64,000 nt of DNA, taken from Harmothoe impar (taxonomy: Eukaryota > Annelida > Polychaeta > Phyllodocida > Polynoidae). The notes below the pieces were generated by a model that saw only the letters and a program-made list of their open reading frames with translations, was not told the origin of the DNA and ran no database searches. Positions 14,312 to 33,824 of this stretch are shown piece by piece; positions within the stretch are counted from its first letter, which is position 1, and every line of letters starts with the position of its first letter. The position numbers and the translations under genes are program-made. The stretch is taken from the NCBI GenBank assembly GCA_947462335.1, contig OX381716.1:7512861-7576860 (forward strand), given 5' to 3'.

Positions 14312-14317
14312 TATATC
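14312..14317. other. E1 target-site duplication, left (TATATC)
   Basis: TATATC immediately precedes the left terminus and is repeated at 23700-23705 directly after the right terminus. Confidence 0.9.
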
Positions 14318-14445
14318 AGTAGTATAGTATGTATCGGAACGGGACTATAGTTAAGTACTGTTTATTACTCAATCGACCTGCAGCCAATCAGAGGCCTCCA
14401 TTTGGTCACGTGACCGGAAGTGACCTACTTAGGGGATTAGTGGTG
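14318..14445 (+). repeat. E1 left terminal inverted repeat
   Basis: 128 bp matching the reverse complement of 23572-23699 with one visible mismatch. It contains a CCAATCAG box, a CACGTG E-box and a CCGGAAGT ETS-type site, so the terminus itself looks promoter-like. Confidence 0.9.
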
Positions 14446-14745
14446 ACGTCACGTGACCTAGTTAGCCAATCAGAGGCCGCCATTTGGTCACGTGACCGGA
14501 AGTGACGTCATATGACCTACTTATGGACCGGAAGTGACGTCATATGGCCTACTTAGGGGACCGGAAGTGAGGTCATATGACCTACTTTAGGATCACGTGA
14601 CCGGAAGTGACCTGATGAGTCACGTGACCGGAAGTGACGTCACATGACCTAATGGCCAACCGGAAGTGAGTGACCTCATTGAGGATCACGTGACCGGAAG
14701 TGACCTGATTGATCACGTGACCGGAAGAAGAAGTGACGTCACGCG
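14395..14745. promoter_or_regulatory. E1 left subterminal array of E-box/ETS/CRE-like sites
   Basis: About ten variants of a unit reading GTCACGTGACCGGAAGTGAC are packed into 350 bp, often continuing into GTCA so that an ETS core (CCGGAAGT) abuts a cAMP-response element (TGACGTCA). CCAATCAGAGGCC occurs at about 14,465. The consensus identities are established; function as an enhancer, an origin or both is inference. Confidence 0.7.
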
Positions 14746-14799
14746 ACTTAATGAAGAGATGAGCGTCTTTAAGGGGTCACGCGCTTTAAAATGTGATAT

Positions 14800-15150
14800 C
14801 TTTTTTTTTGGAGGAGGAGGAGGAGGAGGAGGAGGAGAAGGAGAGGAGGAGGAGGCGAGTCTCTTATTTTTTTCGGTAAACTAATAAAAAACACTACGAT
14901 ATAAGTTTTTTTTTTTTTTCATTTTTTATTGTTTTACGAGCGACTGGAAGTGACTTATTGAACTAGGTAGAAGCGTTCTTTAGAGTGTATAAGGGGGGGG
15001 AGGGGAGGGGAGGGAAGGGGAGGGGGGGCCACTTTAAGATGCATGGGGAGGGGGGCGCTTTTAGGATGCATGGGGCGGGTGGGGGGGAGGGGGGGAGGGG
15101 GGAGGGGGGCACTCTAGGGGGGTGGGGGGGCACTCTAAGGGGCGTTTGTC
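14800..15150. repeat. G-rich/low-complexity tract with G-quadruplex potential
   Basis: (GGA)n at about 14,810-14,855, then runs of GGGG/GGGGG separated by one or two bases across about 14,992-15,140, with ATGCATGGGG repeated at about 15,038-15,078. A related C-rich tract occupies the matching subterminal place in E2 (33,296-33,375). Confidence 0.75.
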
Positions 15151-15188
15151 TCTTTTAAGAAAAAAAGAAAAGAAAAAGATTTCAATCG

Positions 15189-15230
15189 AGAGACACGCTT
15201 CTTCCTCTCGAGAGGAAGAAGCGTGTCTCT
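15189..15230. repeat. Perfect 42-bp palindrome
   Basis: Arms of 21 bp meet at CTCGAG (15207-15212); the left arm starts AGAGACACGCTTC. The same left arm with a shortened right arm occurs in E2 at about 31,087-31,118, just upstream of a TATA box. It can form a cruciform or hairpin; its role is unknown. Confidence 0.9.
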
Positions 15231-15379
15231 TCATTTTTTTTTGTTTATCACGTGCCTCGATGAGGCGATCAGCTGCGACTGGAGGAAGTGACACTTTAAG
15301 AGGGCGCGCGTCTTAATTGTTATGATATTTTTTTTTTACTTACTAATAAAGAAGACGTATGAAAATAAAACACAACAAT

Positions 15380-16120
15380 TCACATGTCCGTCGTTCTCGT
15401 TGTTTCTTGCTTGATAAAGTCAAGTAATATCGCGATGCCGAGGTCAAACTTTCCCATGTCCTCAGTCAATACTCGAAGGAGTTCAAAAGGTGTACCGCCG
15501 GCACCGTCAGCTTCATCTTGCCACATTTTCAACACTCGGAAGGCCCACTCAGCGGGACTTCCTCCGTATTCGCATTCTTCAGCGATCTTATCTAACCTCT
15601 CAGGCGAGAATTTTGAATGGTCCCCCACCTCTTTCCACCTGCTACCTAGACGTCTGCCGAGGGTGCCCAAGTGCTTATGCATCGCGTGCGAGTCGGGGTT
15701 TTTGAAATCCAACCCCTGTCTGTGGAGAAGGGACATCCACTGAGCCAACAGTTCCACGCGTCTAATGCGGGTGAAGACGCGACCGAGCTCTCCCCATCTA
15801 TGACGATGCGGGGTTTCACCCCACCAGACTCGGAACATCGCCGTACACAGCTCCTCCGGTGTCTTGACACTGCGCTCTACTAGAGCATCCATACGGGCGG
15901 CGGTAACTTTTAAGCTACTGCCCAACTCTCTCCAACAGCCGCTCAACTCTTTACCTAGTTGACGAAGCAAGGCGTCGCTATAGGCTAACCGCCGCTGTCC
16001 TACCTCTCTGTTCTCCCCATCGGTCTGCCTCGCGCGTCTCACGTCGTCAAGCCGCATTAACTTTTTTTCAGGTGGACAAGGCGGTGAAGGCGAGCTTGAA
16101 AGTGGAATAGCTTGAGCCAT
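15380..16120 (-). CDS. Tandem death-domain protein (246 aa)
   Basis: An intact frame from ATG at 16120 to the stop at 15380. Residues ~1-45 are a Pro/Ser-rich then basic linker. Residues ~48-128 and ~147-233 each fit the six-helix death-domain pattern: L..LG..L...W..LG..L at the start, a W in the middle (RVWWGE; VLKMWQD) and a final hydrophobic helix. The second repeat (GSRWKEVGDHSKFSPERLDK) is the clearer match. No catalytic domain is fused, so this is adaptor-like and would act through homotypic cytoplasmic contacts with host death-fold signalling proteins. A TATAAAA lies at 16241-16247 (-), followed by a GCC-repeat leader running up to the ATG. It is divergent from the Ala-rich gene at 17,188. 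Death domain assigned by pattern, not by search; effect (pro- or anti-death) unknown. Confidence 0.75.
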   Translation of the reverse strand: MAQAIPLSSSPSPPCPPEKKLMRLDDVRRARQTDGENREVGQRRLAYSDALLRQLGKELSGCWRELGSSLKVTAARMDALVERSVKTPEELCTAMFRVWWGETPHRHRWGELGRVFTRIRRVELLAQWMSLLHRQGLDFKNPDSHAMHKHLGTLGRRLGSRWKEVGDHSKFSPERLDKIAEECEYGGSPAEWAFRVLKMWQDEADGAGGTPFELLRVLTEDMGKFDLGIAILLDFIKQETTRTTDM

Positions 16121-16127
16121 CTCGTCT

Positions 16128-16200
16128 CGTCTTGGCGGCGGCGGCGGCGGGGGCGGCGGCGGCGGTGGTGGCGGTGGTGGTGGTAGTAGACGTTACTGTG
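16128..16200 (-). repeat. (GCC)n leader tract of the death-domain gene
   Basis: On the minus strand, GCC/ACC triplets run from about 16,190 to just before the ATG. E2 retains the matching ACC/GCC run at 30,963-31,013 but has no gene behind it. Confidence 0.75.
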
Positions 16201-16240
16201 GTCAGAGGCGATATGGTTTTTTTTCCAACAGAATCTGAGC

Positions 16241-16247
16241 TTTTATA
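16241..16247 (-). promoter_or_regulatory. TATA box of the E1 death-domain gene
   Basis: TGTATAAAAGCTC on the minus strand, 121 bp upstream of the ATG. It is conserved as an orphan promoter in E2 at 30902-30908 (+). Confidence 0.65.
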
Positions 16248-16743
16248 CAGAGGGAGTTTAATCCCATTTCCAACAGCACTCCAGCTGTCTAGCGTCCTGT
16301 CCGCATGACGCTTTTTCAGCCGCTCCGCTCCTTAAGAGCTTAGATGACGAGGGGTATGTCATCGCTATCCGTTGAGACCAGCTGAAAACGGTGTTTCTTC
16401 CTCATCCATAGCCTTACCTCCTACCCCCTACCTGAGGACGTCTCCCTCCCTCTGACATTCATTGTAACAAACGTCAGAGGTCAGGTGAAAATCGGATTTT
16501 TTTCATGCACAGCCTTAGTCAGCTGTCACCCCTCCCTATTGAACTAGCCGGCCGCCGCCTGGCCGGCCCGGTCTACTCACCACGGCAGGAGGTGGTGATT
16601 TTTTTTTGTCTTACACTTAAGTCGCTCACCACATGCACACGCCTCTACTCACAGACAGACACGTTCGTCTTAGGGGGGTCCTGCTTCACGCCACACGCCT
16701 CCTGTAGTTTTTTTTGTATACACACTCTAAGCTCATCACCGTT

Positions 16744-17082
16744 AATCCTTTATACAGCTAACGCGCGCTGAATTGCTGAACAGGGTGGTAAGTGGCTTAG
16801 CTCATGACAGTGGATCCCTCAAAAAAAAACAGGGGAAAGGGATCCAGCTGAAAACGTCATACCTTATGTCTTTGTGAATGGCCGCCGGTCAGTCGACGGC
16901 AGCAACCGCTTAATCCTTTATACAGCTAATGCGCGTTGAATTGCTGAACAGGGTGGTAAGCGACTTAGCTCATGACAGTCGATCTCTCAAAAGGGGGGAA
17001 AGGGATCCAGCTGAAAACGTCATGCCTTATGTCTTTTGTTTCTCTTTGTGAATGGCCGCCGGCCAGCCGGCGGCAGCTGAAC
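16744..17082. repeat. Direct repeat of a ~169-bp promoter unit (E1)
   Basis: Two tandem units (about 16,744-16,913 and 16,914-17,082) share TCCTTTATACAGCTAA, TTGCTGAACAGGGTGGTAAG, CATGACAGT, GGATCCAGCTGAAAACGTCAT and a GGCCGCCGGCC-type inverted repeat. A shortened third unit leads into the TATA box at 17,122. Related units lie upstream of the E2 homologue (29,760-30,150). This looks like a modular divergent promoter between the death-domain and Ala-rich genes. Confidence 0.75.
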
Positions 17083-17121
17083 AGGGTCAGTAAGTAGCTT
17101 AGCTCTAGAAGCGAGAAGGCG

Positions 17122-17129
17122 TATATAAG
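17122..17129 (+). promoter_or_regulatory. TATA box of the Ala-rich/PC4-like gene
   Basis: GCGTATATAAGGGG lies 60-66 bp before the ATG. The same GTATATAAG word precedes the E2 Ala-rich gene (29748-29755, -) and the unknown gene (31124-31131, +). Confidence 0.7.
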
Positions 17130-17187
17130 GGGCCTGGAAACCTCCATTCACTCACTCATTCTTTTGCTGCTCTCTACAGTCACCACC

Positions 17188-18792
17188 ATGAGCAAAAGAC
17201 AACACCTAGCGCCGTCCAAGAACAAGAAGACTACGCGGAACAGCGCTCGTTTAGCGTCAGTGCCTCCTCTTGCTACTGAAAATGAGACTACCGCCGCAGC
17301 CGCTTGGTCTTATCACCCTCCCGCTGTAGCGAGCGCTCGCGGCAGTAGTAGTAGTAGTAGCAGTAGTAGTAGCAGTAGTAGTACTAGTAGTAGTAGTAGT
17401 AGTAGTGGTAGTAGTACTACTGGTAGTAGTCGTCGTGCTAGCGACGTTGTTACACTCGCGACGGTACACGTTGCTGCTAAGCGCGCTGCCGCTGCTACTG
17501 CCGCCCCGCCTGCTGGTGATCCTCGGGCTGCGGCTGCTGTGGCTGCTGCTGCTGCTGCACCTGCTACCGCTGCGCCTGCTACGGCTGCGCCTGCTGAGGC
17601 TGCTGCGCCTGCTACTGTTGCGTCTGCTGCTGCTGCTGCTGCTGCTGCTTCTGCTGCACCTGCTGCTACCGCTACTACTACTGACGACAACGCTCCTGGC
17701 ACAGCGCAGTACTGGCAACCGGGTTTTTACCTCCCCACTACTGTTGATGACTTTGATGACCTGCCGCACGTTGCACAGCCCCTCTCCTCCACCACTACAT
17801 CGACCGACACCCTCGACGCCGCTCGCGCTGAGAGTGACAGCTATTCGGACACTCAGCCCCTAAACCGAGAAGAAGAGGAGGAGGAGGAGGAGGAGCAGCA
17901 GCAACAGGGTGAGACAGAGAACGACGCTGACGACGAGGCGTACGAAGAACCCGAAGGGAAAGGGGTGGGCGGTACGTTTTTCGGCTCCCCTCTTCGACCT
18001 TTCGACCTCACTTCCACTAGTAGCGCCCCGTCCGGTCCGTGGCGACTGCCCTCACCGCCACCTTACGAGGGCGGCGGCGCTTCATCTTCTACCGCTACAC
18101 TCAGCACCGACGGCGTGTGGCTGCTCTGTTCCAACAACGAGGCCTCGCATACCACCAGCGCTGACGCTGCTCCTGCTATCGGTTCTGCTGCTGATTCAGC
18201 TCACGCTGATGGTGTTACTCATCCTGCGGGTGTGAAACGTTCTAAGGTGAGTTCCAGAATAACAAGGCCTAGTAAGAAGAGAAAAATACAAGAAAAAGAA
18301 CGAGATGGACGAGAAGAAGCAGAGAAAACCTTCTCCCGTCTTCTCGGGTTAGAGTTCTGCTTAGACGGAGCTTTGACGCTGGAGATCTGGGAGGACGTGG
18401 CTAGACTGTCTAGGAGGCCGCGCTACACAAAAGACGGCCAGGTGAAAGAGGCGTCTCTGACCAGAAGCAAGCGAGTGCACTTCACGGCCGACGCGCTGCG
18501 CGAGCTAATAGCACGCATCGCCGATATCCGCGCAGTGGTGCGCATACGCGACACAGCGGCCGCGCAAGGAAGACCTAATCACACCCCCTGGTTCGCAGTG
18601 CTGGATGAGAAGGGCGAAGTGTACGCAGCTGTGAGCTACTACAGCGGTAAGAACCTCGTCCACGTGCGCAAGTACGAAGGTCCTGACAAAAAACCCACAC
18701 AGCAGGGAGTGACGCTGTCCGCCAGAGCGCTCAAAGAGTTGGATGACAAAACAGAGATCATTCTGAAATATCTCGGCATAGATTCGGAATGA
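17188..18792 (+). CDS. Ala/Ser-rich protein with two C-terminal PC4-like modules (534 aa)
   Basis: The start is ATG 17188 in a strong Kozak context (CACCACCATGA). An upstream in-frame TTG is not used here, and the E2 homologue shares the same ATG context. Order: basic N-terminus; poly-Ser (AGT codons, 17,343-17,430); long Ala-rich tract (GCT/GCG); acidic E9Q4 run near 17,868-17,904; an SPLRPFDL/WRLPSP region; a bipartite nuclear-signal-like KRSK...KKRK (about 18,238-18,285). Two C-terminal modules follow (residues ~385-455 and ~465-534). The last one, SGKNLVHVRKYEG then TQQGVTLSARALKEL, fits the ssDNA-binding fold of coactivator PC4; the first (YTKDGQ..LTRSKRVHFTADAL) is weaker. Probable role: nuclear ssDNA-binding or transcription/replication cofactor acting next to the polymerase. 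PC4 assignment is by pattern; it could be another small beta-alpha DNA-binding fold. Confidence 0.65.
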   Translation: MSKRQHLAPSKNKKTTRNSARLASVPPLATENETTAAAAWSYHPPAVASARGSSSSSSSSSSSSSTSSSSSSSGSSTTGSSRRASDVVTLATVHVAAKRAAAATAAPPAGDPRAAAAVAAAAAAPATAAPATAAPAEAAAPATVASAAAAAAAASAAPAATATTTDDNAPGTAQYWQPGFYLPTTVDDFDDLPHVAQPLSSTTTSTDTLDAARAESDSYSDTQPLNREEEEEEEEEQQQQGETENDADDEAYEEPEGKGVGGTFFGSPLRPFDLTSTSSAPSGPWRLPSPPPYEGGGASSSTATLSTDGVWLLCSNNEASHTTSADAAPAIGSAADSAHADGVTHPAGVKRSKVSSRITRPSKKRKIQEKERDGREEAEKTFSRLLGLEFCLDGALTLEIWEDVARLSRRPRYTKDGQVKEASLTRSKRVHFTADALRELIARIADIRAVVRIRDTAAAQGRPNHTPWFAVLDEKGEVYAAVSYYSGKNLVHVRKYEGPDKKPTQQGVTLSARALKELDDKTEIILKYLGIDSE

Positions 18793-18811
18793 GAGACGCT
18801 CAACGCTCACG

Positions 18812-18945
18812 CGCGCACACACACACACAGCGTTTGACGTACGCTGTATGAGACAGACAGACGGATACACAGACAGCAGACAGAAAGATAAATAGATAGA
18901 TAGATAGACAGATAGATTGATAGATAGATAGATAGATAGTTAGAC
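18812..18945. repeat. (CA)n and (GATA)n microsatellite between PC4-like gene and polymerase
   Basis: CACACACACACA at about 18,816-18,830, then interrupted AGAC/AGAT repeats to about 18,940. This is the only spacer before the polymerase start, so any polymerase promoter must lie here; no TATA box is evident. Confidence 0.85.
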
Positions 18946-18978
18946 GGCTAAGTAGTTGGTAACTGAGTGAAAAAAAAC

Positions 18979-21900
18979 ATGACACAGTACGTATGCGAAA
19001 AGTGTTTCAAAATGTTTAAAAGACCGTACAACCACGAGAGACACGTAGAAAATTGTAGAGTAGTACCTAAGTTTTGCCCTCTATGCGGCGAAGGCGATTG
19101 CCGAAAGATCGCCTGTCGACGCGAATCTCTGGACGGGGTGACCGTCCCTCCGCGCATATGTGCTGTACCGAACGGGAGGAAACGTTCACGGCGAATTGGC
19201 CTGCGATACAAACGGGCGTCAGGATGCACGGGACTCGCGTGAGTGTAACAAACTTCAGGCTACCAACCGGCGAGTTGAGTGACGCTGTAGATACTATGCG
19301 TCGCATTCACTTGACACAAAGATTCAGATACAAAGTGGGTTTCTCGGTAGGCTTACTCTTACAACACAGAGAAGACAAGAGCAAACTGCGCTACTTTCAC
19401 GCCTCCCAGAACAACGCAACTCTCATACAACCGCTCCCTACTATAACTAATTCAGAAACTTTGGAAGAGCTCCTCTCAAAGATGGAAAACACCGTCGCTT
19501 GCGAGGAAGTACGGAAACTTTGCGACGCTGACACCAAGTGGCACGTTCTTTTTCCTACCAATTTGAACATTTGCGTTTACATGGGACCGGGGGAATTCCC
19601 CATAGGCGGTAGGATCACTCAGGCCGGTCGAGTTGGAAAGAGAAGCGGCGTGTTAGATTTTCCCAACAAGGACAACCTCTGCATCTTCCGCTGCATTTCC
19701 TTTCACTTATACAACACCAGCAAGCGTGCTTCAGATTTGTTACGTCAGTTCTGTCCCGCTGCCACACCTGAATCCTTTCCGGGTCTGAATATCCGCGACT
19801 TACCCGCGTTAGCGAACTTGTTTGACGTACAAATAGCGGTTTACACCGCGTCGCGTCAAGTGCCGGGGCGGAAGTTAAGAAGACGCGTTACTCTGATCAG
19901 ACCGCCTTCCAGAACTCTGGCCGCCCGAGGTAAAGTCAACCTACACCTGACGGCGAAAGGCGGTTTGCACGTCTCTCTCGTCACGGACTTCAACGCGTAC
20001 GCGGGCATATACGAATGTTGCAAGTGTAAGGCGGCGTTCACCACCAAGTTCTTGCTGAAGAGACACAGGAACCAGCTTTCCTCTTGCCGACAAGTCAAGT
20101 TGCGCTACGTAGGTGGCATCTACCAAAATTCGAGAACGATTTTCGAAGCGCTAGCAGACTTCTCCATTTTTCCCCCCGACGGACATTCCGGAATCTACCC
20201 TTACAAGATCGCCTTCGATTTCGAGGCTTTCTTCAGACCGTGCAAAGAACCGTCGACGGAACACGTGTCCCTGCTGTGGGATCACGTCCCTTTGTCGGCT
20301 AGCGTCGCATCCGACTTTCCGGGGTGGGAGGGGCCCGTCTGCTTCGTCAGAGAATCCGACGCAGATTCCGACCCCTTGTTGGACCGAGTTTTAAATCACA
20401 TAAACTAGAACGCCAAAGTCATCGGGGAAGCTGTGCTAGAACTTTACCGACCGACCTTAGCGAAGTTAGATGCGGCGATAGGTGAAGCTCTCCTGCTGGA
20501 GGAGGCGACGTTCACCCCTTCTCCAGGCGGCTTCGCTGCGGCTCAGACCAGACACCCGTTAGTTCAACTGAAGAAGCGTCTTCTGAGATACATCCGTCAA
20601 GCTCCAGTCGTGGGCTTCAACTCGGGGCGTTACGACTTGAACCTGATCAAAATACGCCTTCACTCGTTCTTCGCCTCCGGAGACCGAAGAAACCAAGAAT
20701 TCAGCGTCATAAAGAGAAGCAATCAATACTTGGCGGTTTACACACAGCACACGGTTTTCTTGGACGTAGTCAACTATTTGGCACCCGGTTACAACTACGC
20801 GACCTATTTGCGAGCTTTCACCAGGAACGAAGAGAAAGGTCACTTTCCTTACGAATGGATGACGTCTACCAGGAAACTGGCAAACAGAACGCTGCCACCG
20901 AGATCGGCTTTCGACAGCGAGCTGACGGGCGTCAAAATGTCCGAATCCGACTACGCCGCATGTCAGAAAGTTTGGTCCGACGAGAAGATGCAAACTATGG
21001 AAGACTACTTGATCCACTACAACAACAAAGACGTCAAACCTTTCATAGAAGCTCTGAAAAATCACGCTAAATTTTTCCAAGATCGCGGCATTGACATGTT
21101 GAAAGACGGAGTTTCTCTCGCCGGTTTGACTTTACGGTTCCTCTTCCAAAACCTAGAAGACGCGTTCACAACGTTCCCCCAGTTCGACGCCGTCCTCCAC
21201 GCTCTGATCAAAGAAAATCTAGTCGGCGGTCCTTCCATCATCTTCCATAGATTTCACGAGAAGGGCACCACGCGGATAAGGGAGCACAAGTACGGCGAAG
21301 AAGCGAGACCGTGCCAACACATCCTAGGACTAGACGCTAACTCTCTGTACTTGCGCTGCATGAGCGAAGCGCACTGCACGGGCTATTACGCGGTGAGACG
21401 GCCCGAGACCGAGTTCAAGCCCGAAATTAGGCAAAGAAACTCTCACAGCGCTTTGGAGTGGTTACGCTTCGTAGAGCACGACCGCGACGTGAAACTGCGC
21501 CACGCTTTGAACGGCGGCGAGATGGTTGTAGGCTGTCGGAGAATTCGCGTGGACGGGTTTCACGCGGCCTCTAATACGGTTTTCCAGTTTCACGGGTGTT
21601 GGTTCCACGCTCACGAGTGCATACCGTCGCACCGATATCAGTGCGCTTCACTGAGAGAGGAGAGACGCGACAGAACGACCAGAGTAAGCGCTTACTTGAA
21701 AGCGCTAGGTCACAAGCTGGTCGTCGTGTGGGAGTGCGAATGGCGAGAGATGAAGCTTTGAGATGAGCGGGTCAAGGCCTCCCAACAACGCTGGAAGGTT
21801 GACGCTTTGAAAGTGTCTCGAAATGCGATGAGCGAGAGCGACATCCTTTCCGAGAAAATGTTCGGTTTAGTTCACGCCGCCTCACCTACGAGACTACTTC

Positions 21901-23066
21901 GAAGAAATGACCCCCGTTTTCAAGAACGCGACCGTTTCAAAATCGGACATAGGACCTCACATGTCAGACTTTGCGCAGGAAGAAAAGCTGTTGAACACGC
22001 CTCAGAGATGTCTGATAGGGAGTTACCACGGAAAAAATATTCTCTTGGGAACGCCGCTTCTCAAGTGGTATTTAGAGCACGGTTTGATAGTCAGCTGGTG
22101 GTAGAATACCTACCTAAACGCTCCTTTGCCGGTTTTGCGGACGAAGTAACGGCGGCGCGAAGACGTGGCGACGTGAACGAGAACGAGAAAATTCTGTCAG
22201 ACTGTTACAAGTAAATGGGAAACGCTACGTACGGTAAAACAATCTGCAACAAAGAAAAACACACAGCGGTGAGATACACTGACAGTCGGAAGTTCGAACT
22301 ATTGGCCAATTCGTGGCGCTTCAAAAAGGCGTCCGAGTTGAGTTCCGATCTGTTTGAAGTCGAACTACAACCGAAAACAGTCAACAACAACCTCCCTATT
22401 CAAATAGGGTTCATGGTATACCAGTACGCGAAGTTGAAAATGTTAGAGTTCACATACGACTTCTTGGATAGATTCGTCGATCGGCGCGATTATGCCCTTT
22501 GTCAAATGGACACCGACAGTCTTTACATGGCTCTCAGCGGTGACACGTTGGATGACCTAGTCAAACCTCGCCTGAGAGAGACGTACTTCAGAGAGAAACG
22601 AAAGTGGCTTCCGACAGCGGTGTGCGACGATCACTTAGAGCTTTTCGTGAAGACAAAAACGGAAAGAGTGCGAGAATGGTGTCCGCCGCCCGGCGGATGT
22701 TGTGAGAGACGGTACCTTCACGATCTGAGAACTTCGGGGCTTATGAAAGCGGAGTGGGAAGGTGACGGGATCCTAAGTCTCAACCCTAAGACTTACATTT
22801 GCTACGATCGAGTCAGCGACACCGGTGAAAGAAAATCCAAAAAATGGAGTGCAAAAGGCGTACAGAAGAAACAAAACCCTCAGGAACCAGACGACTTCTT
22901 GGATGTTCTTCGCCAACGAAAAACTCTCATTGCTGTAAATAGAAACTTCAAAGTGGTGCGAAACAAAATGGTCACCTACACCATAGAGAAAGACGGCGTG
23001 CGCTACTTGTATTATAAGCGTCGCGTGCATTCTGACGGTGTGACAACGAGTCCTTTAGAGATATGA
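18979..23066 (+). pseudogene. Broken protein-primed-type family B DNA polymerase (E1)
   Basis: A 4.1-kb region in pieces. The N-terminus from ATG 18979 has a C2H2-like finger (CEKCFKMFKRPYNHERH). Next come DNLCIFRCISFH (about 19,671) and GLHVSLVTDF (about 19,960), an OTU-like C/H pair known from Polinton-type polymerases, and a second finger (CCKCKAAFTTKFLLKRH). The catalytic core follows: exonuclease motifs FDFEAFF (~20,215), GFNSGRYDL (~20,612) and YNNKDV (~21,018); polymerase motifs LDANSLY (~21,333), GNATYGKT (22,218) and MDTDSLY (~22,507). Breaks: stops at 20406-20408, 21759-21761 and 22212-22214; frame changes between ~19,100 and 19,240, at ~21,885 and at ~22,090. The gene cannot make a full polymerase as it stands. 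AATAAA-rich sequence follows the last stop (23,070-23,155). Confidence 0.85.
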
Positions 23067-23219
23067 AAAAAAATAAATAAGCGTGTGCATCTTTTCAAAA
23101 ATAGAGTGTTTATCAAGATTGAAAAAAAAAGAAATAAAAAAAATAAAATAAAATATTGTTGTGTTTTTATTTTCATACGTCTTCTTTTACTAGTAAGTCG
23201 CGCAGTCTCTTAAAGCGTC

Positions 23220-23620
23220 ACTCATGTGACGACGTCGCTTCCAGTCACGTGATCCTAAAGACCCTCACTTCCTAAACAAAAAACTTCTTCTTCCGCTCAC
23301 ATGATCAATCAGGACACTTCCGGTCACGTGATCCTCAATGAGGTCACTCACTTCCGGTCGGCCATTAGGTCATGTGACGTCACTTCCGCTCACGTGACTC
23401 ATCAGGTCACTTCCGGTCACGTGATCCTAAATTAGGTCATATGACGTCACTTCCGGTCCCCTAAGTAGGTCAGTAGGTTACCCAGAATGCACCACTAATC
23501 CCCTAAGTAGGTCACTTCCGGTCACGTGACCAAATGGTGGCCTCTGATTGGCTGCAGGGTTACCCAGAATGCACCACTAATCCCCTAAGTAGGTCACTTC
23601 CGGTCACGTGACCAAATGGA
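23220..23620. promoter_or_regulatory. E1 right subterminal array of E-box/ETS/CRE-like sites
   Basis: Reverse-orientation counterparts of the left array: ACTTCCGGTCACGTGA and TGACGTCACTTCCGGT repeated about eight times. Two copies of an ~88-bp unit add ACCCAGAATGCA (about 23,480 and 23,562), which resembles the ZNF143/THAP11 promoter motif. Confidence 0.65.
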
Positions 23621-24829: not shown

Positions 24830-25156
24830 TTTTAAAGGACTCGTTGTCACACCGTTAGAATGCACGCGACGCTTATAATACAAGTAGCGCACGTCATCTT
24901 TCTCTATGGTGTAAGTGGCCATTTTTGGTTCGTACCACTTTTGAAATTTATATTTACCGCAAGGAGAGTTTTTCGTTTTCGAAAACATTTAAGAAGACGA
25001 CTACTTCTGTACACTTTTTTTGAGATTTTCTTTCACTGGTGCCGCTGATTTGATCGTAGCAAATGTAAGTCTTAGGGTTGACACTTGGGATCCCGTCACC
25101 TTCTCACGCCGCTTTCTTTTCTTTCTGAAGTATGTCTCTCTCAGGCGAGGTTTGAC
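24830..25156 (-). pseudogene. Polymerase C-terminal relic (E2)
   Basis: Antisense to, and clearly related to, the last ~500 bp of the E1 polymerase (about 22,555-23,066), with an internal deletion corresponding to about 22,605-22,765 of E1 and several stops. Homology ends abruptly at ~25,156, where a foldback repeat begins. Confidence 0.8.
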
Positions 25157-25568
25157 TACACACAGGCAAACATCAGAGGCACCCAATAGCGCTAATTCTA
25201 CCTTCAGACAAAGGTCAGGCACGGCTGGCCTATAATAGATGGGTCAAGGGCTATTCTAGTGAGGGTCAGGCTGCGCCGGACATTCAATAAAAAGCTGGAG
25301 TTTGGCAAACTTGCTTTTGAAAGTCTGACCATGCGGGATCCTCATGCCATAGTCTGACAATGCTGAACTCTTGGGAGAGTATGCCGGACTCTTGCTGGCC
25401 AGACTTTCAAGCAAATTTGCCAAAGTCCAGCTTGTTATTGAATTTCCGGCGTAGCCTGACCCTCAGTAGAATAGTCCTTGACTCATCTATTATAGGTCAG
25501 CAGCGCCTGACCCTTGTATGAGAGTAGTATTGGCGACATTGGCCGACTCTGATATTTACCCGTGTGTA
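25157..25568. repeat. Foldback repeat, ~412 bp
   Basis: Left arm (about 25,157-25,320) and right arm (about 25,390-25,568) are inverted copies sharing TACACAC...CAGAG, GGTCAGGC, CTATAATAGATG and GCCGGA.ATTCAATAA. A third copy of the right arm lies at 33,002-33,185, at the outer edge of the second cassette. Confidence 0.75.
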
Positions 25569-25749
25569 CGGCGGGAGGAGGGGGTTCACAGCCACTGCTT
25601 GCGCTTATAGAGCGCTACTAGCGGAGGTCTGGATGAGGAGACTACGGCGTTTGTCTTTTGCTTGTGCAGCTGCTGCTGCTGCTGCTGACGATGTCACGGA
25701 TGCCGCTATTACTAATGCTACTAATACTAGTATGAGAAAATACATTTAG

Positions 25750-26532
25750 TCAATTGATTAAATCAAGGAGGTTTTCTGACTTCAGTGGATCGTTTAGCCA
25801 TCGGCCACGGGCAAAACTTGAAACCATTTTATACATGGGACAATTGGCAGAGTCGAAACGTGTTGGTACCATAGGGTCGATCATGTTCATCATCAGTTCA
25901 GGCAAAGGAAGTGTGTCGACAGCACGCGAAAACTTCATGTCTGAATGTTTCAACACAAGACTTTTTATCACACTCACACAGCTGCTTTGAAGAGTGAATC
26001 CTTGACCAAACTTGTGCTTTTCCAACACAGCTTTGGCCTCTTTCTGTGCAGTAAGGGATCTCTCTTTCGGGTTCATCTCAGTGCTGTCTAGCATGTCCTC
26101 AAAGTCTTTAACATAATGTTCCAACGGACTACAAATGATGGACTCCAGATCATCGTCTGCATATGTCGTCTCCTCGCACCATATTGTGTCTTTGCCTGTT
26201 TCGAATTCCGTCATTTTCCTGACAATCTCCTCCTGAGTGCCTTGCATATATCGAAGCTCCTTCAAGGAGTTGATAACTTGTATGGCGAAGACTGACAAAC
26301 TTGAAGGAATTTCACCACAGTCAGGCCAAGTATACGGAGCTAAGAAAAATAGCTCTAACAAAATCTTCTCCCTCTGTCCAAATGAAACTACTGTTCCGAT
26401 GAAGTTGAAGCATGCTTCTATCCATTGCTCCTTGGTGACGTCCTTCCAATGTTTCTTTACCTCACATGCATCATAGGGCACCGTTTCTCTTCTTGCTTCA
26501 AGTGGGAGTTGCTTTTTCTTTCTTGGACTCAT
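25750..26532 (-). CDS. Unknown accessory protein, copy A (260 aa)
   Basis: Open from ATG 26532 (MSPRKKKQLPLEARRE) to the stop at 25750. An in-frame upstream ATG at 26601 would add 23 residues, but that part is poorly matched in copy B, so 26532 is preferred. The protein starts with a basic patch and then looks mostly helical with scattered Cys and Trp; the end DPLKSENLLDLIN is conserved. I recognise no family. Copy B (31,544) is about 89% identical by hand count, and all length differences are multiples of three, which supports real coding. The TATA region present upstream of copy B is cut off here at about 26,889, where polymerase sequence begins, so this copy may lack its own promoter. Confidence 0.7.
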   Translation of the reverse strand: MSPRKKKQLPLEARRETVPYDACEVKKHWKDVTKEQWIEACFNFIGTVVSFGQREKILLELFFLAPYTWPDCGEIPSSLSVFAIQVINSLKELRYMQGTQEEIVRKMTEFETGKDTIWCEETTYADDDLESIICSPLEHYVKDFEDMLDSTEMNPKERSLTAQKEAKAVLEKHKFGQGFTLQSSCVSVIKSLVLKHSDMKFSRAVDTLPLPELMMNMIDPMVPTRFDSANCPMYKMVSSFARGRWLNDPLKSENLLDLIN

Positions 26533-26888
26533 TTCGAGAGGGTTTAGATGCTCTGTAGCGTCAACACTTTCATAAACAAAGAAAATAGCAGAACTAACCA
26601 TCGTAACGTGCTGAGCGAGCGTAGAGTGGACGATGCTACGAAGATGAAGGGCGGGTGGAGAAAGTGTGACTGGTGACAGCGGCGTTTCACTCCTTATGTA
26701 CCCTGTCCTAGATAAGCCTCTTAAACGGCTGAAAAGACTCTCTAAGTACAGAGCTTCTACCGCAGGTGGGTTTAGACTTAAGCAGCTTAGTTCACACACA
26801 TGTCTGTTAGAAAAAGCTACTTGCACACGCGCCTTCCTTTTTTCACTAGTATTCACCCTCTGCCGACTTATAAGACACCTATACACTC

Positions 26889-27952
26889 TTTCTCGTGAAA
26901 TCTATGGAAGATGATGGAAGGACCACTGACTACATTTTCTTTGATCAGAGCGTGGAGGACGGCGTCGAACGGAGGGAACGTTGTGAACACAGCTTATAGG
27001 GTTTTTGGAAGAGGTCTTGTAAAGTCAAACTGGCGAGAGAGATGGCGTCTTTCAACATGACAATGCTGCTATGTTGGAAAAAAATAGCGTGATTTTTTCA
27101 AAAAGCTTCTATGAAAGATTTGACGTCTTCGTTGTTGTAGTGGATCAAGTAATCTGTCATAGTTTGCTTCTTCTTGTCATACTAAACTTTCTGACATGTG
27201 GCGTAGTCGGATTTCGGCCATTTTGACGCCCGTCAGTTCGCTGTCAAAAGTCGATCTCGGTGGCCGGGGTTTTTTGTTTACTAGTTTCTTGGTATACGTC
27301 ATCCATTCGTAAGTAAAGCAACCTTTCTCTTTGTTCGTAGTGAAAGCTCGCAAATAATTCGCGTAGCTGTAACCAAGTGCTAAAAAAGTTGACTACTACG
27401 TCAACTATTGATTGCTTTTCTTTATGACGCTGAATTGTTGGTTTCTTCGGTCTCCGGAGGCAAATAACGAGCGAAGGCGTATTTTTTGATCAGGTTCAAG
27501 TCGTAACTCTCCGAGTTGAAGCGTACGACTGGAGCTTGACGGATGTATCTCAGAAGCCGCTTCTTCAGTTGAACTAACGGTTGTCTGGTGTGAGCTGCAG
27601 CGAAGCCGCCTGGAGAAGGGGTGAATGTCGCTTCCTCTAGCAGGAGAGCTTCACCTATCGCTACATGTAACTTCGCTAAGGTTGGTCGGTAAACTTCTAG
27701 CACAGCTTTCTCGATGACTTTGGCGTTCTCGTTTATGTGATTTTAAACTCGGTCTAACAAGGGGTCGGAATCTGCGTCGGATTCTCTGACGTACGCTGCC
27801 CCTCCTACCCCGGAAAGTCGTATGCGACGCTAGCCGACATCGCTGCATAGAGAGCAAAACTTAGGTATCGTTCTTCATTTTTCTACGGGTCGCTCGTGAT
27901 TGTACGGTCTTTTAAAAATTTTGAAACACTTTTCGCAAACGTCCTGCGGCAT
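26889..27952 (-). pseudogene. Polymerase N-terminal/exonuclease relic (E2)
   Basis: It begins at an ATG (27952-27950) with CEKCFKIFKRPYNHER, very like E1. It soon meets a stop and then jumps across a ~1.2-kb deletion (E1 equivalent about 19,085-20,296). It resumes through the exonuclease region with further stops, and ends at the equivalent of E1 21,261. The palm motifs are missing, displaced by cassette A. Where E1 has its stop at 20406-20408, E2 has a sense codon, so that stop postdates the common ancestor or is private to E1. Confidence 0.8.
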
Positions 27953-28120
27953 GTTTTTCTTTTTTTTTGTTTTTTTCACTTATTTACCAAATATTAAAAA
28001 AATAAACGTTGTTTATCACTTCGAATACTAGACGCCTCTTACCACACGATGCTATTAGCATAGTGAAAGACGTCTGTAGTGTAGGATCGATTTCAACAGA
28101 TGTCCATCTTACTGCAGGGA

Positions 28121-29330
28121 TCAGACGAGAGTCGTCAACACTGGTGTGTCACAGCTCACTTTTATTTCTTTGGGTACAGCTGCATACAACCCTTGAACAT
28201 ACATTGCGACGTCGCCGCGTCCCATGTAGTCTTCCAACACTTTCATCAGAGCCATAGGCTCAGACGTCTCGTTGTACTTCCAAGCTTTCAGCACTTCATA
28301 GACAGGGTTCTTCACAGTCCTGTCAGAAGGCACAGGTTGAGAGATGGAAGTTACTTCATGAGAAGTCAACCCTAAGTAGATCCCTATGGTCTTCCAGTCT
28401 CTAGGGCAGAGCTCAGCTAAAAGAGAGAAATATTTCTGCACTTTCCACTCCATGTCTCCACTCTCTAAGCCATCCCACATGTCATGCTTGTCCATGTACT
28501 CACGTGAGAATTTGATGAGGTCCATACGGTAAGATTCTTCCAAGGCGGCGGCTAGGTCCTTCCACCTACTAGTACAACTTTTCTGGTACCAAGTAGTGAA
28601 CATTTCTCTAGCTTGAGTTATGACACTTGTCTCACAACTGAGATATCCCATATCCTTCAAGTTCACTTCAAGGAATGAACCTAACCGTATGTAATCTGAT
28701 GTCGGCAACTTACCGCTTATTTTCAGTAGCATAGCGTCTGACAAGTATCCTAACGGCTCTGCTTTGAAGTATGATGATACAGGTACTACTGCAGCAGAAC
28801 CAATAACAGGAGCAGCGTCTGCGCTGGTATCAGACGACTCGTTGTCGGAACAGGGCAACCACATGACTTCGTAAGGTATTGGTGAGGGCAGTCGCCACGG
28901 ACCGGACGCACTACCAGTGGAAATGAGGTCGAAAAACGGACTGTGCGCCCGTGACCCTTCGGGTTCCTCGTACGCCTCGTCGTCAGCGTCGTTCTCTGTT
29001 TCACCCTGTTGCTTTAGGACATGTATGTCTACTACGCGCTGCTGGGGCTGAGTGTCCGAATAGCTGTAAGTCTCAGCGCGAGCAGCGTTGATGGCGTCGG
29101 TTGATGAAGCGGTGGAGAGGTTCTGTGCAACGTACTGCGTGTCAGTACTAGTAGCGGTAGTCGCAGCAAGAGGTGTAGCAGCAGCAGCAGTAGCAGCAGC
29201 AGCAGGAGCAGCAGCAGCAGCAGCAGCAGGAGCAAGCGCAGCGCTAGCAAGTGCAGCAGTAGCAGGCGCAGCAGTAGCAGGCACAGCAGCAGCAGGCACA
29301 GCCGCCTCAGCAAGCGCAGCAGTAACAGGC

Positions 29331-29362
<32 letters not shown>

Positions 29363-29689
29363 CACAGCAGTAACAGGCGCGGCAGCAGCAACAGCAGCAG
29401 CAGCAGCAGCACTAGCAGCACGAGGATCACTAGCAGCCGCAGCAGGCGCAGCAGTAGCAGCAGCAGCGTGCTCAGCAGCAACAACCGTCGCGAGTGTAAC
29501 AACGTCGCTACTACTGCTGTGTGCGCTCGCTACAGCGGGAGGGTGATAAGACCAAGCGGTTGCGGCGGTAGTCTCAATTTCAGTAGCAAGAGGAGACGCT
29601 GACAGTAAACGATCACCGTTCTGCGTATTCTTCTTGTTGTTGAACTCGATTAGATCCTTGGACGACAGTAGTTGTTGTGTTTTGCTCAT
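28121..29689 (-). CDS. Ala-rich protein with two C-terminal death domains (522 aa)
   Basis: Start ATG 29689 in GGCACCACCATGA context, the same as the E1 homologue. Residues ~1-295 parallel E1: MSK start, WSYHPPAVAS, DVVTLATV, Ala/Pro-rich tract, SDTQP, ENDADDEAYEEPEG, GPWRLPSP and TSADAAP.IGSAA. After GSAA the sequence changes completely. Residues ~315-400 (RWKDLAAALEESYRMDLIKF) and ~417-500 (CPRDWKTIGIYLGLTSHEV ... YEVLKAWKYNE) are death domains, the second very typical. It lacks the nuclear-signal-like region and PC4-like modules of E1. Inference: an adaptor or decoy for host death-fold signalling built on a shared low-complexity N-terminal module. TATA at 29748-29755 (-). Confidence 0.75.
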
Positions 29690-29747
29690 GGTGGTGCCTG
29701 TAGAGAGTAGCAAAAGACTGAGTGAGTGAACGGGTGTTTCCAGGCCT

Positions 29748-29755
29748 CTTATATA
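29748..29755 (-). promoter_or_regulatory. TATA box of the E2 Ala-rich gene
   Basis: GTATATAAGAGG on the minus strand about 60 bp before the ATG, equivalent to 17122-17129 in E1. Confidence 0.65.
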
Positions 29756-29759
29756 CGCC

Positions 29760-30180
29760 TTCTCGCTTCTAGAGCTAAGCTACTTACAGCTCTCTTCAGC
29801 TGCCGCCGGCTGACCGGTGACCATTCACAAAGAGAAACAAAAAGTCATAAGGTATGACGTTTTCAGCTGGATCCCTTTCCCCCGCCCCTTTGAGAGATCG
29901 ACTGACACGAGCTAAGCTACTTACTGCCTTGTTCAGCAATTCAACGTGCGTTAGCTGTATAAAGGATTAAGCAGTTGCTGCCGCCAGCTGACCGGCGGAC
30001 ATTCCCAAAGAGAAACAAAAGACATAAGTCATGACGTTTTCAGCTGGATCTCTTTCCCCCCTCCCTCTTTTTTTTTGAGAGATGGACTGCCATGAGCGGG
30101 CGGTGTACCGACTGTACTAATTCAACGCGCATTAGCTGTATAAAGGATTAAGCAGACATGAGCTTAGAGTGTGTATACAA
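29760..30180. repeat. Promoter-unit repeats (E2 counterpart of the 169-bp units)
   Basis: Inverted relative to E1: TATGACGTTTTCAGCTGGATC at about 29,855 and ATGACGTTTTCAGCTGGATC at about 30,030, GAGCTAAGCTACTTA at about 29,770 and 29,915, and TTAGCTGTATAAAGGATTAA at about 29,951 and 30,132. Confidence 0.75.
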
Positions 30181-30309
30181 AAAAACTACAGGAGGCATGT
30201 AGTGTGAAGCAGGACCCCCTAAGACGGGAGTGTCTGTCTGTGAGTAGAGTCGTGTGCATGTGGTGAGCGACTTAAGTGTAAAACAAAAAAAAATCACCGC
30301 CTCCTGCCG

Positions 30310-30875
30310 TGGTGAGTAGACTGGCCGGCGGCGGCCGGCTAGTTCAATAGGGGTGACAGCTGACTAAGGCTGTGCATGAAAATCCGATTTTCACCTGACC
30401 TCTGACGTTTGTTACAATGAATGCCAAAGGGGGAGAGAGTTGTCCTCAGGTAGGGGGTAGGAGGTAAGGCTAATGGATAAGGAAAAAAAACACCATTTTC
30501 AGCTGGCCACCACAGATGGCGATGACATACCCCTCGGCATCTAAGCTCTTAAGAAGCTCTTACGGAGCGGAGCGGCTGCTGGACAGCTGGGGTGAGTAGA
30601 CCGGCCGGCGGCGGCTAGCTAGTTCAATAGGAGTGACAGCTGACTAAGGCTGTGCATGAAAATCCGATTTTCACCTGACCTCTGACGTTTGTTACAATGA
30701 ATGCTAAAGGGGGAGAGAGTCGTCCTCAGGTAGGGAGTAGGAGGTAAGGCTAATGGATAAAGAAAAAACACCATTTTCAGCTGGCCACCAAAGATGATGA
30801 TGACACACCCCTCGTCATCTAAGCTCTTAAGAAGCTCTTACGGAGCGGAGCGGCTGCTGGACAGCTGGGGTGCTG
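30310..30875. repeat. Tandem ~285-bp repeat upstream of the orphan promoter
   Basis: Two units (about 30,310-30,594 and 30,595-30,875) share GTGACAGCTGACTAAGGC, AAATCCGATTTTCACCTGAC, ACGTTTGTTACAATGAATG, CCATTTTCAGCTGGCCACCA and GCTCTTACGGAGCGGAGCGG. E1 has a single inverted counterpart (about 16,270-16,560). Confidence 0.8.
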
Positions 30876-30889
30876 TTGGAAATAGGATT

Positions 30890-31025
30890 AAACTCTCTCT
30901 GTATAAAAGCTCTGATTTCTGTTGGAAAAAAACCATATCACCTTTGACCACAGTAACGTCTACTACCACCACCACCAGCACCACCGCCGCTGCCACCGCC
31001 GCCGCCGCCGCCAGTCACAGCTGAT
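30890..31025 (+). promoter_or_regulatory. Orphan promoter and leader of a lost death-domain gene
   Basis: TCTGTATAAAAGCTCTG (TATA 30902-30908), TGTTGGAAAAAAACCATAT, CCACAGTAACGTCTACTACC and an ACC/GCC triplet run match the E1 death-domain gene leader in order and spacing. The coding sequence that should follow is absent; instead cassette B begins within ~60-100 bp. Confidence 0.7.
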
Positions 31026-31086
31026 CACCTCATTAAAAGCATGTGACGTCGTCGCTTCTAGTCACTTGCTTCATCAAGTCGCTTCC

Positions 31087-31131
31087 AGAGACACGCTTCT
31101 TCCTCTCGAGAGGAAGAATGACGTATATAAG
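31087..31131 (+). promoter_or_regulatory. Palindrome remnant and TATA box of cassette B
   Basis: The left arm of the E1 42-bp palindrome and part of its right arm (to about 31,118) run into TGACGTATATAAGG (TATA 31124-31130). This fuses a CRE-like half site to the TATA box about 415 bp upstream of the ATG. Confidence 0.6.
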
Positions 31132-31543
31132 GAGGCTGACACGTGTATAGGTGCCTTATTAGTCGGCAAGGGGTAAATACTAGTGAAAAAGGAAGGCAGG
31201 TGTGCAGGTAGCTTTCTAACAGACACGTGTGTGCACTAAGCTGCTTAAGTCTAAACCCCCCTGCAGTAGTCAAGTAGCATGTGAAAACTTACTTAACAGA
31301 TCACTTAATTGAGTAGAGACTCTGTACTGAGAGAGTCTTTTCAGCTGTTTAAGAGGATTATCTAGGACAGGGTACATAAAGAGTGAAACGCTGCTCTCAC
31401 TCATCACACTTTCTCGACTCGCCCTTCATCATCGTAGCATCGTCCACTCCACGCTCGCTCAGCATGTTATGAGGGTTATTTCTACCTTTACAGCTTCTTT
31501 TCTTATCGAAGTGTCGACGCTACAGAGCATCGAAACTCTCCAA

Positions 31544-32326
31544 ATGAGTCCAAGAAAGAAAAAGCAACTCCCACTAGAAGCAAGAAGAGAAACGGTGCCC
31601 TATGATGCATGTGAGGTAAAGAAACATTGGAAGGACGTCACCAAGGAGCAATGGATAGAAGCATGCTTCAACTTCATCGGAACGGAAGTAGTTTCATTTG
31701 GACAGAGGGAGAAAATTTTGTTGGAGCTATTTTTCTTAGCTCCGTATAGTTGGCGTGACTGTAGTGGTGAAATTCCTTCAGGTTTTTCAGCGTTCGGCAT
31801 ACAAGTTATCTGGTCTTTGAAGAAGCTTCGATATATGCAACGCACTCACGAGGAGATTGTTCAGAAAATGACGGAATTCGAAACAAAAGAAGTATGGTGC
31901 GAGGAGACGACATATGCGGACGATGATCTGGAGTACATCATTTGTAGCCCGTTGGAACATTATGTTAAAGACTTTGAGGACATGCTAGCCAGCACTGCGA
32001 TGACCCCGAAAGAGAGATCCCTTACTGCACAGAAGGAGGCCAAAGCTGTGTTGGAAAAGCTCAAGTTTGGTCAAGGATTCACTCTTCAAAGCAGCTGTGT
32101 GAGTGTGATAAAAAGTGTTGTGTTGAAACATCCGGACATGAAGTTTTCGCGTGCTGTCGACACACTTCCTTTGCCTGAACTGATGATGAACATGATCGAC
32201 CCCATCGTACCAACATGTTTCGACTCTGCCAATTGTCCCATGTATAAAATGGTTTCAAGTTTTGCCTGTGGCCGATGGCTAAACGATCCACTGAAGTCAG
32301 AAAACCTCCTTGATTTAGTCGACTGA
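31544..32326 (+). CDS. Unknown accessory protein, copy B (260 aa)
   Basis: Start ATG 31544 (MSPRKKKQ). The frame is also open upstream to an ATG at 31469, but those 25 residues match copy A poorly. About 89% identical to copy A by hand count; codon-sized indels occur near residues 48 (GTEVVSF), 71 (DCSGEI) and 116. It is predicted soluble, with no signal peptide or membrane helix seen. It occupies the position of the E1 death-domain gene and has a TATA box at 31124. No family recognised. Followed by a CAG-rich block. The leader from the TATA box to the ATG is long (about 390 nt) and could hide an intron. Confidence 0.75.
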   Translation: MSPRKKKQLPLEARRETVPYDACEVKKHWKDVTKEQWIEACFNFIGTEVVSFGQREKILLELFFLAPYSWRDCSGEIPSGFSAFGIQVIWSLKKLRYMQRTHEEIVQKMTEFETKEVWCEETTYADDDLEYIICSPLEHYVKDFEDMLASTAMTPKERSLTAQKEAKAVLEKLKFGQGFTLQSSCVSVIKSVVLKHPDMKFSRAVDTLPLPELMMNMIDPIVPTCFDSANCPMYKMVSSFACGRWLNDPLKSENLLDLVD

Positions 32327-32389
32327 CTAAATGTATTTTCTCATACTAGTATTAGTAGCATTAGTAATAGCGGCTACTCGGTCTCGTGC

Positions 32390-32705
32390 AGCATCCGTGA
32401 CATCGTCAGCAGCAGCAGCACGATCAGCACAAGCAGCAGCTGCTGCACAAGCAGCACAAGCAGCAGCATCTGTCAGCAGCATCAGTGACATCGTCAGCAG
32501 CAGCAGCAGCAGCAGCTGCTGCACGAGTAGCACAAGCAGCAGCATCTGTCAACAGCATCCGTGACATCGTCAGCAACTGCAGCAGCTGCACGAGCAGTAC
32601 AAGCAGCAGCAGCTGTCAGCAGCTGCAGCAGCTGCACGAGCAGCACAAGCAGCAGCACCGACAGCAGCAGCAACAGCAAATCAGCAGCAGCAGCAGCAGC
32701 GGCAA
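32390..32705. repeat. CAG/AGC-rich tandem repeat (~80-90-bp period)
   Basis: Three to four imperfect units containing GACATCGTCAGCAGCAGC, GCAGCTGCTGCACGAG and AGCACAAGCAGCAGC. The other cassette has only about one unit (25,665-25,705), so this block expanded or contracted after the duplication. Open frames through it are low-complexity and unconvincing. Confidence 0.8.
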
Positions 32706-33001
32706 TGTGGACCGCTAAATTCGAGATGGTGACATATCTGTTTCTTAGAATCGACATTCGACATGAGGTCTAGTGACATTTGACATGAAGCTTGAAAAAC
32801 ATAGTGACAGGTGACATGAGCAATTCTTAAAATCGACACGAGATATGAGCATAATTAAGCGACATCGACATGTGCCATGGCTATTTTTTTTTTTTTTTGA
32901 AGACAACCGCCATAGCTTCCTTATCCAGACCTCCACTAGTAGTGCTCTATAAGCGCAAGCTTTGCCTTAAGAGAGCTGTGGCTGTGAACCCTCTCCTCTC
33001 T
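32706..33001. other. Cassette B distal sequence
   Basis: AT-rich, with GACATGAG/GACATTCG-like short repeats at about 32,750-32,880. CAGACCTCCACTAGTAGTGC to CTCTATAAGCGCAAGC matches cassette A at about 25,600-25,640 in reverse. No gene supported. Confidence 0.55.
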
Positions 33002-33229
33002 CCGTACACACAGGTAAATATCAGAGTCAGCCAATGTCGCCAATACTACTCTCATACAAGGGTCAGGCGCTGCTAGACTATAATAGATGGGTCAAGGACT
33101 GTTCTACTGAGGGTCAGGCTAGGCCGGACATTCAATAACGGGCTGGACTTTAGCAAATTTGCTTGAAAGTCTAGCCAGCAAGAGATGCACATCATCATAA
33201 ACGCGATCATGATACCTTTCATTGTAAGT

Positions 33230-33278
33230 AGACTCGCCTCTCTGCCCTCTCTTTTAGAGAGGGCAGAGAAGCGAGTCT
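33230..33278. repeat. 49-bp subterminal hairpin (E2)
   Basis: Arms AGACTCGC..TCTGCCCTCTCT and AGAGAGGGCAGA..GCGAGTCT around a TTT loop. It sits between the cassette and a C-rich tract (33,296-33,375), the same relative place as the E1 palindrome. Confidence 0.8.
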
Positions 33279-33494
33279 CACTCTTAAAAAACCCTGCCCC
33301 TCCCCCCCTCCCCCCCTCCCCCCCCATGCATCTTAAAGAGTGCCCCCCAGAGTGCCCCTCTCCCCCCCCTCCTAGAAAAAAAGAGCCGTATTTTTAAATT
33401 ATTTTTTAGCAAGCTTTTTCAGCTTGCTTTTTTTTTCTTTTTTTAAATTTATTTATCCATCAAAATCTCAAGTGACTTATTTTGAAAGCCAACC

Positions 33495-33736
33495 TAGTAG
33501 TCACGTGACCCCCTTAAGTAGGTCACTTCCCGTCACGTGACCTATTTGAATTTCCCGCCAACATGGTGGTCACGTGACCCTCTTAAGTAGGTCACTTCCG
33601 GTCACGTGACCTATTTGAATTTCCCGCCCAAAGGTCACGTGACCGGAAGTAGGTCACTTCCGGTCACGTGACCTATTTGAATTTCCCGCCAAAAGGGAGG
33701 CCTCTCATTGGCTGCTTTTGAATTTCCCGCCAAAAG
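33495..33736. promoter_or_regulatory. E2 right array: E2F-like sites with E-box/ETS units
   Basis: Four E2F-type words TTTCCCGCC(A/C)A at 33551-33561, 33620-33632, 33682-33694 and 33723-33735 (reverse complement TTTTGGCGGGAAA). They alternate with GTCACGTGACC and ACTTCCGGTCACGTGAC. CCAAT-type boxes (ATTGGCTGC) adjoin the terminal repeat. Confidence 0.7.
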
Positions 33737-33818
33737 GGAGGCCTCTGATTGGCTGCAGGTCGATTGAGTAATAAACAGTACTTAACTATAGTCCCGTTCC
33801 GATACATACAATACTACT
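33737..33818 (-). repeat. E2 right terminal inverted repeat
   Basis: Two mismatches to the E2 left end. It diverges after GGCCTCC into E2F-like sites rather than CArG-type sites. Confidence 0.9.
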
Positions 33819-33824
33819 AATGTT
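33819..33824. other. E2 target-site duplication, right (AATGTT)
   Basis: Matches 24039-24044 exactly. Confidence 0.9.

Follow-up and report, generated by a model that had tools for sequence, protein, structure and literature searches.

Two neighboring Polinton-type insertions in the polychaete Harmothoe impar as candidate pieces of a Polinton with a divided gene set

The 64,000-nucleotide stretch of Harmothoe impar contig OX381716.1 analyzed here (the window) contains two neighboring insertions, E1 and E2, which have the ends of Polintons/Mavericks but carry neither an integrase nor a capsid gene. Each insertion is flanked by an exact 6-bp target-site duplication (TSD), TATATC for E1 and AATGTT for E2, situated at the very borders that an earlier note on this DNA had proposed (Table 1). 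For both elements, 6-bp matches precisely at the borders would arise by chance with a probability of ~(4^-6)^2. The termini read AGTAGT...ACTACT, and any two of the four ends are identical at 83-87 of 88 positions before diverging into motif arrays, results which bear out the shared termini and the Polinton/Maverick-type insertion described in that note. A Pfam scan (E ≤ 0.1) of ten open reading frames (ORFs) from E1 and E2 gave no match to rve, capsid, packaging ATPase or protease families. What it did detect were Death matches and weak matches to PC4 and DNA_pol_B_2, along with weak zinc-finger and other sub-threshold matches. Likewise, tblastn of nine proteins from the S class of elements described below, integrase and capsid-like proteins included, found no match in the window at E ≤ 1e-5. 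We consider E1 and E2 to be pieces of a Polinton/Maverick-type element in which mutually dependent linear pieces, each integrated separately, hold different parts of the gene set, a reading to which we assign a probability of slightly below 0.6.

The earlier note had proposed searching the host with the terminus for copies, TSDs and internal gene sets, and the 1.51 Gb assembly was searched with a query of 101 bases comprising the TSD and terminus of E1. Since the query included the TSD of E1 itself, which biases the list, no target-site preference is claimed. The first look returned 525 candidate places, 40 of which were scored, each 99-100% identical; these represent 39 elements including E1, one fetched stretch containing two of the 40. 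The DNA read comprised 20 stretches of 8.7-10 kb plus the far ends of two, and 21 of the 39 elements were read through. Interior sequence divides the sample into four classes that share an 88-bp end: P (20 places), M (9 places, 8 elements), U (9) and S (2). For 30 of the 39 elements the sequence read extended to both ends; the 6-bp TSD is exact in 29 of these and off by one base in the other, and that of E2 is exact too. The 31 complete elements (the 30 listed and E2), 12 of them read at the arms only, range from 7742 to 10457 bp, and a single 15-20 kb element bearing all Polinton genes was not encountered among them. Nor did PolB and integrase occur together in any of the 21 elements read through or in E2, and the full-length relatives with the same ends for which the note had suggested looking were absent from this sample. 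Nine elements were not closed: six have the far end outside the short piece that was read, two are P copies with internal duplications, and one is a P copy apparently with a nested retrotransposon. Locus L019 was considered as a further class and rejected, as judged by eye from its ORFs it looks like a P copy holding a Gypsy-like retrotransposon.

The P class, to which E1 belongs, is ~9.4 kb in size and carries PolB, PC4-like and death-domain genes. It is a young, multi-copy class: nine P copies (E1 included) have a single common layout and diverge by 0.3-2.6%. The PolB gene is uninterrupted in four of the nine; the polymerase that the earlier note called dead is so in both window copies but not in the family. 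Between two P subclades, PolB has a dS (synonymous divergence) of ~0.04 and a dN (nonsynonymous divergence) of ~0.008, with dN/dS of 0.161-0.233 in four comparisons, values which at the sequence level carry the mark of purifying selection. Inside the subclades the PolB values are 0.064 and 0.458, and dN/dS there spans 0.06-3.6 with few changes and is hence little informative. The ratios between subclades are 0.25-0.44 for the death-domain genes and 0.26-0.40 for the PC4-type genes, the latter from six of the nine P copies, with six comparisons omitted for a copy whose row took the PolB ORF (1110 aa). Since the P layout is common to both subclades, PolB was probably kept working while it resided on pieces without an integrase or capsid gene. 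Integration of P elements would have to occur in trans, since the class has no integrase or capsid genes of its own. The death-domain genes, for which dN/dS between subclades stays below 1, may point to an interaction with the death signaling of the host.

Motifs recognized by eye in PolB, on the P class only, are consistent with a polymerase of the protein-primed type. Of 8000 candidates scored against a 450-aa piece of PolB, 283 matched at E ≤ 0.001, and few of the 120 matches listed carry names, Porites, Actinia and Capitella included. Following polymerase motif A, PolB has a stretch resembling the Vsr mismatch endonuclease (window 20409-21761, + strand) that is common to homologues. A 15-row profile matched three PDB chains with E values of 8.4e-6 to 1.1e-5, compared with 0.053-0.073 for the single sequence, and four of the 120 listed homologues are named Vsr by the Joint Genome Institute. 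Adintovirus PolBs are said to have an OTU-like N-terminus (PMC11071296), a likeness seen by eye in E1 as well.

The S class comprises two copies, 9914 bp and 10457 bp long, which have the same ends and the exact TSDs CATATC and GATATA. In one copy the rve integrase, the adenain-like protease and an ATPase of packaging type are all encoded by open ORFs, alongside ORFs of 438 and 365 aa; the second copy was identified by tblastn. Pfam matches were obtained to rve (3.1e-13) and Adeno_IVa2 (1.3e-5, above the cut-off), with Pox_A32 (4.9e-4) and Peptidase_C5 (3.7e-4) just below the cut-off, and integrase, Walker and protease motifs are present in the ORFs. The ATPase also grazes PF00910 RNA_helicase (3.1e-4, at the cut-off of that family). 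The 438- and 365-aa ORFs are presumably the major and minor capsid proteins, an assignment made from their place and general likeness. When loci L001-L030 and the window were searched by tblastn, the 120 PolB homologues matched P copies and the window only, with none found in either S copy, while the nine S proteins matched the two S elements only, the rve integrase not being found in the window or in the non-S loci. The earlier note had interpreted E1 and E2 as satellites or derivatives mobilized in trans. The multi-copy family without integrase or capsid genes supports mobilization in trans, but satellite is probably the wrong word since P and S each lack what the other has, and S has the same 88-bp ends and 6-bp TSDs.

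Elements of the U class (~9 kb; for example L018, L025 and L028, with the same ends and TSDs) contain an Ala-rich ORF and little else that is recognizable. The M class is ~8 kb, and in each of the four copies examined (L009, L012, L022 and L024) two arms of 3.1-4.3 kb, 97.9-99.8% identical, form a near-perfect palindrome, each arm with one novel gene of the MSPRKKK type. Inside the ends, no sequence was shared among P, S and U, compared by one copy each. Comparison of M with S and P (one copy each) revealed common stretches of 149-406 bp with 96.6-99.3% identity, and weaker ones with U, which suggests recent recombination within one pool. At L012, an extra left terminus lies 584 bp outside the M element and P-like flanks surround the other end; thus, this M element may be nested in, or adjoin, a P copy.

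If the family is a Polinton divided in this manner, P would supply PolB and the host-interaction genes, S would supply the integrase, packaging ATPase, protease and capsid-like genes, and U and M would be additional pieces. The P-encoded PolB would copy all pieces from the common ends via protein priming, the S integrase would insert all of them with formation of the 6-bp TSD, and the shell genes of S would package the pieces separately, holding their sizes near one value; the M palindromes could arise through snap-back in terminal copying. Replication, integration and packaging would then be joint and in trans, with the pieces cooperating, virions being formed and no undivided element in existence. 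The odds are about even that the family is a multipartite endogenous Polinton, with P, S, U and M inserted separately by one trans-acting integrase on the common 88-bp end, and possibly a living analogue of the step of a Polinton PolB into segmented bidnaviruses.

Several results weigh against a divided genome. Just two S copies were seen, and one has an interrupted ATPase ORF and a deletion taking parts of the integrase and minor-capsid-like ORFs. The 438- and 365-aa ORFs gave no Pfam or PHROG match, the 438-aa ORF gave no PDB match, and no convincing gene other than the Ala-rich ORF was found in U. Scoring covered 40 of the 525 candidate places, ranked by resemblance to the end and TSD of E1, so that an undivided element could escape if its ends differed slightly. 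Nine of the 39 far ends were not reached, 18 elements were read in part (2.5 kb at one end and 1.2-1.4 kb near the expected far end), and the evidence consists of integrated genomic copies throughout.

The main rival is an undivided helper Polinton of 15-20 kb with these ends, present in the host or as a virus, that mobilizes P, S, U and M as defective derivatives. This explanation, which we regard as unlikely, accords with known Polintons being single 15-20 kb elements (PMC4028283), with the ranking of the sample by likeness to E1, and with the resemblance of the M palindromes to defective by-products. It is at odds with the lack of a PolB and integrase pair in any of the 21 elements read through and with closure of 30 of the 39 elements at 7.7-10.5 kb. 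Moreover, PolB changed under constraint between P subclades of common layout, whereas a defective element fed by a helper needs no PolB, and P and S form a complementary set. Considerably less probable is a two-component transposon without virions, with P and S complementing each other in the nucleus only and the shell genes vestigial. The interrupted ATPase and the deletion touching the minor-capsid-like ORF in one of the two S copies fit this explanation, as does evidence drawn entirely from integrated copies. Nevertheless, the two S copies are 99.5% identical in the major-capsid-like ORF and 98.9% in the protease, although young copies would be alike anyway, and the clustering of sizes at 7.7-10.5 kb is as would be expected from packaging. 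Plain internal-deletion remnants of a single dead Polinton, the outcome that the earlier note had set against its own interpretation, would account for the broken PolB of the window copies but are very improbable in light of the repeated layout, exact TSDs, 525 candidate ends, divergence of 0.3-2.6%, and a PolB that is open in four of nine copies and bears the mark of purifying selection.

Among known systems, virophages and transpovirons resemble the family as small DNA elements reliant on others, in their case on giant viruses. Wasp polydnaviriforms are domesticated, and their packaged segments are circular and are not known to have Polinton-type ends or TSDs. What polydnaviriforms share with the family is DNA in segments, with proviral copies carried by the genome of an animal (PMC2646287, PMC4553618). 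According to published descriptions, Polintons unite PolB, rve integrase, ATPase and protease in elements of 15-20 kb (PMC4028283), and intact vertebrate Mavericks have terminal inverted repeats (TIRs), (AGT)2 ends and 6-bp TSDs (PMC8097293). The TIRs of Polintons/Mavericks end in (AG)3 or (AGT)2. The family has in common with Polintons/Mavericks (Eupolintoviridae, adintoviruses) the (AGT)2 ends, TIRs, 6-bp TSD, PolB, rve integrase, packaging ATPase and cysteine protease (PMC8097293, PMC4028283). It differs in that these genes are divided, in the copies read, over separate insertions of 7.7-10.5 kb, with PolB on P only and the rve integrase, packaging ATPase and adenain-like protease on S only, and possibly in the Vsr-like stretch of its PolB.

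Bidnaviruses have a Polinton-derived PolB in a divided genome (PMC4061559), and Vesanto virus possibly has up to twelve pieces (PMC8363768). Both resemble the family in a PolB of Polinton origin, several linear pieces and inverted ends (PMC4061559, PMC8363768, PMC11071296). Several linear pieces with common inverted ends, a trait of Bidnaviridae, are present here as an arrangement and in integrated form only. In these viruses PolB is combined with a parvovirus-type capsid protein and an SF3 helicase, whereas the family here is present as integrated, TSD-flanked copies and has an rve integrase; the Pfam matches of 20 ORFs from E1, E2, S and U included none to parvovirus families (SF3 helicase, single jelly-roll capsid). 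No relative turned up in IMG/VR when two PolB pieces, PolB and MSPRKKK alignments, the terminus and the major-capsid-like protein of S were used as queries. No report of a segmented, multipartite or bipartite Polinton was found by title or abstract start in a literature in which subscription journals were thinly covered. If true, a Polinton split into several integrating pieces that depend on one another would represent a genome organization new to Polintons and would provide a concrete path by which segmented DNA viruses could have arisen from them. The many datable copies would provide a way to test the origin and germ-line persistence of multipartite genomes.

Table 1. Positions of the features of E1 and E2 in the window.
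Feature	Position	Strand	Basis or remark
Left TSD of E1, TATATC	14312..14317	.	sequence
Element E1, class P, 9382 bp	14318..23699	.	
Left TIR of E1: 88-bp terminal core, then CCGGAAGTG / TGACGTCA / CACGTG repeat arrays	14318..14740	+	
Death-domain protein, 246 aa	15380..16120	-	Pfam Death 6.3e-6; 3 homologues at 54-98% identity
Central region between divergent E1 genes: repeats, TATA-like boxes	16193..17187	.	by eye; partly common to E2
Ala-rich protein with PC4-like C-terminus	17188..18792	+	Pfam PC4 1.3e-4, below family cut-off
E1 PolB gene, five open pieces	18967..23066	+	DNA_pol_B_2 3.2e-4 (below cut-off); Vsr-like insert; OTU-like N-terminus by eye
Right TIR of E1	23283..23699	-	
Right TSD of E1, TATATC	23700..23705	.	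sequence
Left TSD of E2, AATGTT	24039..24044	.	sequence
Element E2, 9774 bp, P-like backbone and two copies of M-class gene	24045..33818	.	
Left terminal core of E2	24045..24132	+	
E2 PolB remnant, fragments only, split by insertion	24690..27961	-	
Second MSPRKKK-type gene copy, within E2 PolB remnant	25774..26553	-	
Ala-rich protein with two C-terminal death-domain stretches (E2)	28121..29689	-	Pfam Death 1.4e-10
MSPRKKK-type gene (E2)	31505..32326	+	8 homologues
Right terminal core of E2	33731..33818	-	
Right TSD of E2, AATGTT	33819..33824	.	sequence

The genes of E1 are ordered as the death-domain gene (-), the Ala-rich gene with the PC4-like tail (+) and PolB (+), the last broken by in-frame stops and frame changes. 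A second C-terminal stretch of the death-domain protein weakly resembles the RIPK1 death domain (PDB, E 0.021). The layout of E2 resembles that of E1 reversed, and its PolB fragments are interrupted by an inserted copy of another gene, of the MSPRKKK type. E2 is a more diverged hybrid with PolB stretches 81-86% like P and MSPRKKK genes ~90% like M, on the basis of which the M class may have derived from E2-like pieces. The predicted structure of the MSPRKKK protein was poor, with a mean predicted local distance difference test score (pLDDT) of 38.6 alone and 43.6 with 9 sequences. Between E1 and E2, both of them decayed, the dN/dS signal was weak, at 0.66-0.67 in the two longest stretches of PolB, 0.26-0.33 in the short ones and ~1.2 in the Ala-rich gene.

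The arms of both elements (14318-14740, 23283-23699, 24045-24610 and 33480-33818) are rich in CCGGAAGTG, TGACGTCA and CACGTG, which occur 0, 1 and 8 times respectively in the window outside the arms, and which are presumably ETS, CREB/ATF and E-box sites. Dating of the insertions from TIR divergence was dropped, a similar left/right difference being present in three P copies. E1 and E2 are spaced by just 333 bp (23706-24038), yet are separate insertions with different TSDs. Elsewhere in the window, 50880-53184 (+) appears to be a spliced host gene with a presumably Crypton-like exon at 52231-53184 that matches DUF3504 (2.6e-17) and Phage_integrase (3.1e-10).

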